A stretch of DNA of 63,231 nucleotides from positions 1 to 63,231 of IMG/VR virus record IMGVR_UViG_3300018421_000024. One strand, written 5' to 3'. The position numbers and the translations under genes were made by a program. Position 1 is the stretch's first letter. Every line of letters begins with the position of its first letter. Positions 22,189 to 54,764 of the stretch are shown here, piece by piece. The notes under the pieces are model-generated. The model was not told the origin of the DNA. It did no database searches and worked only from the letters and a program-made list of their open reading frames with translations. The stretch is from a virus.

Positions 22189-22373
22189 TACGCTGTTTCC
22201 TCAACAAATGCGTTCTCTTCATCAACTATATCCATCAGATCAACACGCAATTCTGCTATCAATCTAATGGTATCATTCGACACTGCACCAGGTCGAACAG
22301 AGTTGACGGAGTGAATACAGTTCATTGCTTCATTCAAAGCATCCAGTTTTTCACTTGCTTTTTCGATTTTCAT
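22188..22373 (-). CDS. Small acidic helical protein, unknown
   Basis: A 61-residue protein, KASEKLDALNEAMNCIHSVN then RLIAELRVDLMDIVDEEN, predicted all-helical. Its ATG overlaps the stop of the upstream gene at GCAGCGTAATG and its own stop overlaps the next ATG in the same way. The coupling on both sides supports it as a real gene. No family is recognised. Confidence 0.7.
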   Translation of the reverse strand: MKIEKASEKLDALNEAMNCIHSVNSVRPGAVSNDTIRLIAELRVDLMDIVDEENAFVEETA

Positions 22374-22879
22374 TACGCTGCCTCCTGAGGAGCATACTTG
22401 TCAAACCACGCGCTGAGGTCCTTGTAAAGGACCACATCGCCATTTACCATCTCATAAGAGACACCATGATGCACCCGAGTGCCATCGTTCAGCACATCAT
22501 AAGCACTAAACTGCTTCGCAATCTCATGGCGCATATAGCCGTACTCACCGTTAATGGTGGTGCGGTGGAAGGACACACGGTCCTCCTTCACAGTACCAAA
22601 GTACGGAGTATCCCACTCCTCACAGTGGTCCTCGACACGAAAGTCGATGTCATCGACCACAGTCTCGCCGATTGAGTACTCCTCCCACGCCTCACTCTTC
22701 TCAGTGATAGCGGCCTCAACACGCGCCCACCACTCGGGGTCCACGTTCTCCTCGATGGAGACATTGAAGATGTAGGTGTTGCCACCTTTGAACTTCCAGT
22801 ACTGCGGGCACTCGCCCTCGCCATCCCAGTCGTGGGCACCGTAGTTTTCGCGGATTTGGGTTTGAATAATTGCTTTCAT
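22373..22879 (-). CDS. Conserved early phage protein, unknown
   Basis: A 168-residue acidic protein. The opening MKAIIQTQIRENYGAHDWDG and CPQYWKFKGGNTYIF is a recurrent phage family without assigned function. AGGA lies seven bases before the ATG. It is the first gene behind the CRP-type promoter at 22910-22952 and is followed by three to four overlapping genes, so this promoter drives 22879 down to 20850. Confidence 0.75.
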   Translation of the reverse strand: MKAIIQTQIRENYGAHDWDGEGECPQYWKFKGGNTYIFNVSIEENVDPEWWARVEAAITEKSEAWEEYSIGETVVDDIDFRVEDHCEEWDTPYFGTVKEDRVSFHRTTINGEYGYMRHEIAKQFSAYDVLNDGTRVHHGVSYEMVNGDVVLYKDLSAWFDKYAPQEAA

Positions 22880-22909
22880 ATCAATGTCCTTTCATCAAAT
22901 TACGGGAGT

Positions 22910-22952
22910 ATTATATCAAAACCAGACGCACCTGTCTGTGAACTGGTTCACA
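22910..22952 (-). promoter_or_regulatory. Extended -10 promoter with CRP-like palindrome (copy 1)
   Basis: On the minus strand the palindrome TGTGAACCAGTTCACA (22952-22937), which is TGTGA-N6-TCACA, is followed after 21 bases by TATAAT (22915-22910), itself preceded by TGA as in extended -10 promoters. The palindrome centre is at -41.5 if transcription starts seven bases after the -10. No -35 hexamer is present. This is the geometry of class II CRP-activated promoters. A second copy lies at 54409-54451. Confidence 0.75.
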
Positions 22953-22970
22953 AAACCGAGCGTGAATATT

Positions 22971-23162: not shown

Positions 23163-23338
23163 TACGCAGCCCTCTTGTTAGCAAGTTCACGGTGAATAGT
23201 CTTTTTTCGACCAACATTGTAGTATGATTCTTTGAAACCAATCCTGCGAGACAGACTCAGAGACTTCTTTGCCTTCTGAGCAGGCAAGACATGAATCTTG
23301 CCGCCTCGCGCCAAAAACTGTTCAACTGTCTCAATCAT
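23162..23338 (-). CDS. Small basic protein (58 aa), unknown
   Basis: A 58-residue basic protein from ATG at 23338 to TAA at 23162-23164: it opens MIETVEQFLARGGKIHVLPA, then has KKSLSLSRR and a KRAA end. Its start overlaps the stop of the ArdC-like gene (GGAGGCTGCGTAATG) and its stop overlaps the next ATG. Its small size makes it easy to miss. The run of Lys and Arg suggests nucleic-acid or nucleoid contact, but nothing more can be said. Confidence 0.68.
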   Translation of the reverse strand: MIETVEQFLARGGKIHVLPAQKAKKSLSLSRRIGFKESYYNVGRKKTIHRELANKRAA

Positions 23339-23598
23339 TACGCAGCCTCCAATTCAGTGGTTTCTTCAATCGGGAACACCCAGAAACGCTTGGGAACCTT
23401 CTTAAACTTGGTCTCTCCAGTCGTGGGGTCTTCGACCTTCTTCGTTACGACTCGCACCAACTCAATACCAGTACCTGCCGCCACGCGGCGTCCAATCGAC
23501 TTGGCCTGCATGAAGGTGAGAAATCCTTCAGACTCATACTCAGCAAGTATGTCAGCATTCTTTCCAGTGTAGGCGTTACCAGTCACGTAATTAATCAT
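23338..23598 (-). CDS. Mini ArdC-like N-terminal-domain protein
   Basis: An 86-residue protein from ATG at 23598 (a TTG three bases earlier is possible; GAGG lies nine bases before the ATG). NYVTGNAYTGKNADIL, LTFMQAKSIGRRVAAGTGIELVRV and KRFWVFPIEET match, in order, the ArdC N-terminal ssDNA-binding domain (TG-x-Y-x-G-x-N, TF-x-QA, V-x-x-G, FxVF). ArdC proteins are plasmid antirestriction factors of about 300 residues; here only the N-terminal domain is present. It is the first gene after the promoter module at 23633-23661. Confidence 0.68.
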   Translation of the reverse strand: MINYVTGNAYTGKNADILAEYESEGFLTFMQAKSIGRRVAAGTGIELVRVVTKKVEDPTTGETKFKKVPKRFWVFPIEETTELEAA

Positions 23599-23632
23599 CA
23601 AATCAATCCTCTTTCATCAGATTACGGATAGG

Positions 23633-23664: not shown

Positions 23665-23797
23665 GTAAGTCATTGATTTCCAACGACTTTTCCAGCGATT
23701 GTAAGTTATTGATTTTATTGAAGTTTTTCCGAAAAAAAATTAACTTTTTTCATGAAATTTTTCGTAAATTTTACACATTTTGATCGAAAAAATCGAT
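23665..23797 (-). repeat. Upstream regulatory repeat module, copy A
   Basis: This 222-base gap carries two GTAAGTYATTGATTT repeats (23665-23679 and 23701-23715, 36 bases start to start), a 22-base block at 23707-23728 and a 25-base block at 23740-23764 that are identical to module B (54638-54659 and 54707-54731), and a 20-base block at 23778-23797 matching 54745-54764 with one mismatch. In module B the last block is the 3' end of the DUF3310 gene, so copy A contains a non-coding relic of it. The remaining bases to 23823 show nothing clear. Confidence 0.75.
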
Positions 23798-53833: not shown

Positions 53834-54007
53834 TCACTTTAAAATCATACCAAAGAGTCGCGCAGGAATCACGATAGACTCATTACAAGTATCACAACAT
53901 CGACCGTCTTCGACTACAGGATCGGCACTATTGCCTTCTGCCCAAACTACATTACCATTGTTATCTTTCAACGGTTCAATCTTACCATAACAAATATCAC
54001 ACAACAT
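53834..54007 (-). CDS. Small zinc-ribbon-like protein (57 aa)
   Basis: A 57-residue protein from ATG at 54007 to TGA at 53834-53836: MLCDICYGKIEPLKD at the start and GRCCDTCNESIVIPARLFG near the end supply CxxC and CCxxC pairs, a zinc-ribbon layout. Both ends overlap neighbouring genes or their signals (TAATG at the start). It is one of three such mini-ribbons in the window. Confidence 0.7.
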   Translation of the reverse strand: MLCDICYGKIEPLKDNNGNVVWAEGNSADPVVEDGRCCDTCNESIVIPARLFGMILK

Positions 54008-54378
54008 TACACAGTCTCCTTGATATCAACAGCAGTCCAACCTTCAGGGTCGCACATAAAATAAACATTAGTATCGTGACAAAACGCAATGTCACCAACA
54101 CTCATGGAATGCATACGGTCAACACGGACAATCTTGTCTTGGTCACCGTAACCATTACCAACATGAAACACCTCTTCCAAACCACTCGCTTCGACATTCG
54201 CGACATTACGGTAGTATTCGAACATCCAAGACTCAAAGCCTTCAGAACCACCATGAAAAGCAACGTCACGCTGAATAGCGAGTTCAGGATAGTCACCGAA
54301 GTCGCCATCCCAACCAACAGAGTTCAGGTGGTCAATCGCATCGCGGGAAGCGCGGAATTGAAGAATTGAAAAACGCAT
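54007..54378 (-). CDS. Small early protein, unknown
   Basis: A 123-residue protein with FSILQFRASRDAIDHLNSVG, a WDGDFGDYPELAIQRD segment and a C-terminal SVGDIAFCHDTNVYFM. GAGAGG lies eight bases before the ATG. It is the first gene behind the CRP-type promoter copy 2, in the same position as the 168-residue gene behind copy 1. No family recognised. Confidence 0.7.
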   Translation of the reverse strand: MRFSILQFRASRDAIDHLNSVGWDGDFGDYPELAIQRDVAFHGGSEGFESWMFEYYRNVANVEASGLEEVFHVGNGYGDQDKIVRVDRMHSMSVGDIAFCHDTNVYFMCDPEGWTAVDIKETV

Positions 54379-54408
54379 AACTAAAACCTCTCAACAAATT
54401 ACGGTAGT

Positions 54409-54451
54409 ATTATATCAAAACCAGAGTCGATTGTCTGTGAACCAGTTCACA
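54409..54451 (-). promoter_or_regulatory. Extended -10 promoter with CRP-like palindrome (copy 2)
   Basis: Palindrome TGTGAACTGGTTCACA (54451-54436), 21 bases, then TATAAT (54414-54409) preceded by TGA. The spacing is identical to copy 1, and the bases between the palindrome and -10 are partly conserved (TCTGGTTTTGATATAATACT in both). The palindrome overlaps the stop codon of the 42-residue gene. Confidence 0.75.
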
Positions 54452-54575
54452 CTTCCTCATGTAAATATTCACAATCCTCTGTGATCTCGCTCATTGGTAG
54501 GTCAACACTGTCAACCAGTCGCTCAATGATCTTGATCAGTTCATCGGAATCGATCAATTTTAACTCTTTTTCCAT
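54447..54575 (-). CDS. Tiny acidic protein (42 aa)
   Basis: A 42-residue peptide from ATG at 54575, with GGGAG seven bases upstream, to TGA at 54447-54449. It opens MEKELKLIDSDELIKIIERL and ends in SEITEDCEYLHEEV; helical and acidic. It is the first frame after the perfect TTGACA-16-TATAAT promoter, which supports its reality. No family recognised. Confidence 0.6.
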   Translation of the reverse strand: MEKELKLIDSDELIKIIERLVDSVDLPMSEITEDCEYLHEEV

Positions 54576-54600
54576 ATCATTTCTCCCAATCACAGTATGG

Positions 54601-54631: not shown

Positions 54632-54764
54632 GTAAGCTATTGATTTTATTGAAGTTTTTTTAGGCGGGTAAGCTCTTGATTTCCAAGAGCTTTTTTTCGA
54701 AGTTTTTTAACTTTTTTCATGAAATTTTTCGATCATTTCTCTATTTTTGATCGGAAAAATCGAT
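54632..54764 (-). repeat. Upstream regulatory repeat module, copy B
   Basis: Two repeats GTAAGCTATTGATTT (54632-54646) and GTAAGCTCTTGATTT (54668-54682), 36 bases start to start, with the proximal one three bases from the -35. Blocks at 54638-54659 and 54707-54731 are identical to copy A; 54745-54764 matches A with one mismatch and here encodes the DUF3310 C-terminus. The part 54661-54690 also forms an AGCTCTTG/CAAGAGCT inverted repeat. Confidence 0.75.

Follow-up and report, generated by a model that had tools for sequence, protein, structure and literature searches.

The stretch of viral DNA analysed here (IMG/VR record IMGVR_UViG_3300018421_000024, 63,231 nucleotides, referred to as the window) contains on its minus strand two copies of a promoter cassette, upstream of the genes for a 168-aa and a 123-aa protein (Table 1). 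For the 168-aa protein no PHROG or Pfam match was found. The original prediction described copy 1 as a class II CRP-type promoter in the phage early region. Its perfect TGTGA-N6-TCACA palindrome and the coordinates given for it were confirmed on the minus strand, as were the centre at -41.5, relative to a start at 22903 that is predicted from TATAAT only (7 nt past the -10), and the second copy with identical spacing, having the same 21-nt gap between palindrome and TATAAT. The absence of a -35 hexamer, claimed as well, did not hold, since both window copies have CAGACA, separated from TATAAT by a 17-bp spacer. The extended -10 (TGATATAAT) is present in both window copies but not in two further copies from contig L010. 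Moreover, each copy has an A+T-rich upstream palindrome that was missing from the original prediction.

Table 1. Features of the two cassettes and of neighbouring elements (window positions unless a contig is named; L272 is the full contig of L010)
Feature	Position	Strand	Remarks
Copy 1, main palindrome TGTGAACCAGTTCACA	22952-22937	−	perfect TGTGA-N6-TCACA; centre -41.5 from predicted start
Copy 1, upstream A+T-rich palindrome TGTGAAATATTCACG	22975-22961	−	centre about -65
Copy 1, weak -35-like hexamer CAGACA	22938-22933	−	4/6 vs TTGACA; 17-bp spacer to TATAAT
Copy 1, -10 TATAAT	22915-22910	−	TGATATAAT, extended -10; TG at 22918-22917
168-aa gene downstream of copy 1	22373..22879	−	ATG at 22879, 24 nt past predicted start
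Copy 2, main palindrome TGTGAACTGGTTCACA	54451-54436	−	geometry identical to copy 1
Copy 2, upstream palindrome TGTGAATATTTACA	about 54473-54460	−	
Copy 2, weak -35-like hexamer CAGACA	54432..54437	−	
Copy 2, -10 TATAAT	54409..54414	−	predicted start 54402
123-aa gene downstream of copy 2	54007..54378	−	
48-aa ORF	54447..54593	−	stop codon within copy 2 palindrome; own TTGACA/TATAAT promoter
Paired AATCAATNACTTA-like elements	23666-23714; 54633-54681 (−); L010 4055/4019; L216 3882/3918		
TGTGNAAAATTYACR	23765-23778; also L272 cassettes	−	
Gene for 87-aa ArdC-like protein	23338-23601	−	
Permuted tmRNA and tRNA-Arg	L272 4189-4483 and 7366-7442 (−)		

Several further elements were observed in the window and on other contigs. 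Paired AATCAATNACTTA-like elements, 36 bp apart and just upstream of sigma70-like promoters, form a second promoter class, and single copies are also located upstream of relatives' genes. These elements fit the IHF consensus WATCAANNNNTTR, and it is this consensus that suggests IHF as their binder. Three of the four AATCAAT-type cassettes in the window and L272 contain TGTGNAAAATTYACR, a sequence resembling the upstream palindrome of the CRP-like cassette, at a distance of more than 100 bp from the promoter. L272 encodes a permuted tmRNA (RF04321, 93.6 bits; ARAGORN tag AANDDYYGEVALAA) as well as a tRNA-Arg immediately ahead of one palindrome cassette. Furthermore, the 87-aa protein encoded downstream of an AATCAAT-type promoter matches the N-terminal domain of the anti-restriction factor ArdC, and one of the 36 window proteins matches SutA-RBD, an RNA polymerase binding domain (E 4.6e-5).

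The number of perfect TGTGA-N6-TCACA sites in the window, i.e., two, compares to 0.23 expected from first-order Markov simulations, and for the perfect palindrome with TANNNT 20-22 nt downstream two occurrences were observed compared to 0.03 expected; the full TGTGAACNNGTTCACA did not occur in 60 such simulations of the window. In the repeat search of the window, positions 22877-22970 pair with 54376-54469 with 76% identity over 94 nt (family D1). Based on this pairing and the simulations a chance origin of the cassette was rejected. Since the two copies go back to a duplication, they amount to about one independent observation. The comparison of CRP sites with chance, proposed along with the original prediction, gave a divided result for the window: perfect sites lie above the expectation, whereas one-mismatch sites are at chance level (4 found, 4.03 expected), showing that there is no wider set of CRP-like sites in the window.

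Scanning IMG/VR for TGTGAACNNGTTCACA followed by TATAAT after a gap of 17-25 nt resulted in eight contigs, five of which contain the copy 2 locus almost unchanged. Contig L010 contributes two more copies of the cassette, making four known copies in all. The promoter stretches of L272 are 86-90% identical to those of the window and the tetranucleotide profiles correlate with r 0.93, close to the 0.94 obtained when parts of the window are compared with each other, suggesting that L272/L010 most likely belongs to the phage lineage of the window. In all four copies the main palindrome reads TGTGAAC(CA or TG)GTTCACA and is followed by GACA or GACT, resulting in CAGACA or CAGACT as the -35-like hexamer, with 21 nt between palindrome and TATAAT. 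Both window and both L010 copies match the CRP half-sites in all ten positions, at exactly -41.5. The upstream palindrome, found in the four copies about 23 bp from the main site and composed of TGTGAA-like half-sites, is looser, its right half being fixed relative to the main site and its left half moving by one base, and its half-site spacing is not one used by CRP. Copy 1 and one L010 copy have at least 28 identical bases in common, so that conservation of the core can be due to common descent alone, and cassette copying explains the strict conservation of the 16-mer at least in part. No TGTGAA-N4-TTCACA was found in longer relatives (60 to 160 kb). The palindrome was not found at orthologues of the 168-aa protein (71-79%) or of the 123-aa protein (59-62%), many of which have ordinary sigma70-like upstream sequences. 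The same kind of 16-mer is located ahead of TATAAT in two unrelated viral contigs, L004 and L008, with an offset of 1 nt in L008.

Class II CRP-dependent promoters of gammaproteobacteria carry TGTGA-N6-TCACA at -41.5 together with a good -10 and a poor -35 element. The cassette shows a site of the TGTGA-N6-TCACA type, a centre at about -41.5 from the predicted start and a weak -35. Both palindrome promoters have CAGACA, unlike the convincing promoters in front of other window genes (18441, 20780, 33714, 49670, 54593, 57927, 60518), which have TTGACA or TTGACT. In part this contrast is circular, since both the -35 and the -10 entered the ranking of sites in the promoter scan. Judged by this architecture, a poor -35 exactly at the palindrome would fit what class II activation predicts. 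The duplicated promoter cassette of the window is real and has the anatomy of CRP class II promoters; its sequence, its geometry, the duplication and an architecture conserved in four copies are direct observations, whereas binding of a protein, activation, the identity of CRP-cAMP and the timing are inferred. The class II reading of the original prediction is supported by the geometry, the perfect half-sites and the weak -35. Host CRP-cAMP would be a candidate for the protein, with the strictly conserved 16-mer, the second palindrome of a spacing foreign to CRP and the lack of enrichment of the class II spacing among viral contigs speaking against it. The terms virulent and early used therein were inferences, drawn from a gene content like that of T4 and from the sigma70-like promoter.

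The explanation that accounts best for these data as a whole, with belief and doubt about evenly balanced, is a copied cassette with class II activation by a host CRP-type dimer. A promoter cassette of ~95 bp with a perfect -10 and a poor -35, copied within one T4-like phage lineage, would drive phage genes, probably early ones. A host activator of the CRP type, acting as a dimer, would bind to the perfect TGTGA-N6-TCACA at -41.5 and contact RNA polymerase beside sigma region 4, thereby offsetting the poor -35 contact, while the A+T-rich element near -65 might be the seat of the alpha C-terminal domain or of a second regulator.

Host CRP would be the likeliest binder of the palindrome, with roughly an even chance, and the site matches the CRP consensus. 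In a sample of 143 genomes belonging to the same class as a Thiotrichaceae bin, TGTGAACNNGTTCACA has 12 sites compared to 2 for the reversed control, and these adjoin varied, unrelated genes as for a global regulator; a bacterial regulon for the 16-mer was rejected as the neighbouring genes are too varied to name the regulator. Among 84,980 species genomes the exact promoter arrangement is matched once, in front of an XRE-like gene. Class II spacing is not enriched in IMG/VR, as among the matches listed 5 of 72 palindromes have the 21-nt gap and the spacing histogram is roughly flat from 16 to 26, on the basis of which a general viral use of the palindrome at this spacing was rejected for these matches. 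Protein matches are ambiguous regarding the host; the best baseplate matches are phages of Caulobacter and Sinorhizobium, and the helicase matches point to Stenotrophomonas, Methylophilales and cyanobacterial phages, all with about 62% identity or less. The tmRNA of the related contig does not result in a host call either, since no more than ~33 nt of the tRNA-like portion are matched, in 151 of 299 genomes.

A serious rival to the activator reading, although rather unlikely, is that the palindrome is the operator of another dimeric regulator encoded by phage or host, in the simplest case of a repressor blocking the -35 region, and that the upstream palindrome serves as an additional site for cooperative binding. 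In copy 1 the main palindrome indeed overlaps the CAGACA hexamer with its right end, and the near-fixed distance of the two palindromes in the four copies suggests cooperative binding. Moreover, the conserved GAC[AT] following the palindrome indicates that the -35 may still be used, and a winged-helix protein (weak match to HTH_39, below the curated cut-off) is encoded just upstream of one copy in a related contig. However, a repressor would not need a -35 weaker than that of the other convincing promoters of the phage, and no convincing DNA-binding regulator was found among the 36 window proteins scanned, the window being part of the genome.

It is improbable that the palindrome is no protein site and belongs to a mobile early-promoter cassette acting PeSL-like at the RNA or DNA level, i.e., by a stem-loop or by recombination. 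The cassette occurs in duplicate and mixed with a different type of promoter, abutting an AATCAAT-type element in L272, and the upstream genes end at or within the element in both window copies; however, the -10 is fixed at 21 nt in all four copies, a T-run is absent, and the RNA folds predicted for the copies vary and lack consistent stability (z -3.25, -2.47, -0.85 and -0.43), an inconsistency for which an RNA stem-loop or terminator was rejected. Highly improbable is binding by another activator of the CRP/FNR superfamily, such as NtcA (GTA-N8-TAC) in case of a cyanobacterial host. The N8 geometry is identical, cyanophages are among the helicase relatives and T4-like cyanophages have predicted NtcA sites (PMC3037559), but the site by inspection is GTG-N8-CAC, and the best baseplate matches point to other hosts.

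Regarding class II activation by a host CRP-type dimer, the window cassettes share with class II CRP promoters the site, its centre at -41.5, the good -10 and the poor -35. They differ in that they add an upstream palindrome without CRP spacing and in that they are located in a T4-like phage. In many bacteria CRP-cAMP serves as the principal signal of carbon status. The cassettes are hinting that some phage genes are tied to the host nutritional state. Tentatively, and with somewhat more doubt than confidence, a T4-like lineage might have built and multiplied its own cassette requiring host CRP-cAMP, by which a gene set would follow the host carbon status, alongside another class of promoters that has IHF-like sites in tandem.

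The original prediction regarded the reading of host cAMP status for early gene expression as rarely described for virulent T4-like phages. The idea that T4-like phages use host activators is not new, given the predicted NtcA and the tested PhoB sites. For CRP sites in T4-like phages no report was found in the literature searched, which is not proof of absence. NtcA is a member of the CRP family, and each of the 16 T4-like cyanophages studied has predicted sites for it, 1-16 per genome, which were proposed to drive phage genes (PMC3037559). The palindrome geometry and the idea of a host CRP-family activator for T4-like phage genes are the same here, whereas GTA-N8-TAC is unmatched and two sites are present in 63 kb. 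Cyanophage Pho-box promoters likewise link T4-like phage genes to a host nutrient regulator; PhoB, however, belongs to a two-component system and its binding was shown by gel shift (PMC10976474). The promoter-early stem-loops (PeSLs) known from T4-type phages (Arbiol 2010, Comeau 2014, via PMC4503421) are likewise early-promoter cassettes copied between genes, and differ in that the four copies of the window lineage have a regulator-like palindrome instead of a consistent stem-loop or terminator. If the activator reading is true, CRP-cAMP would be a further signal of host nutrition, besides NtcA and PhoB, to which T4-like phages respond, and with the contrast of palindrome promoters and ordinary ones in a single phage, reporters could test the advantage directly.
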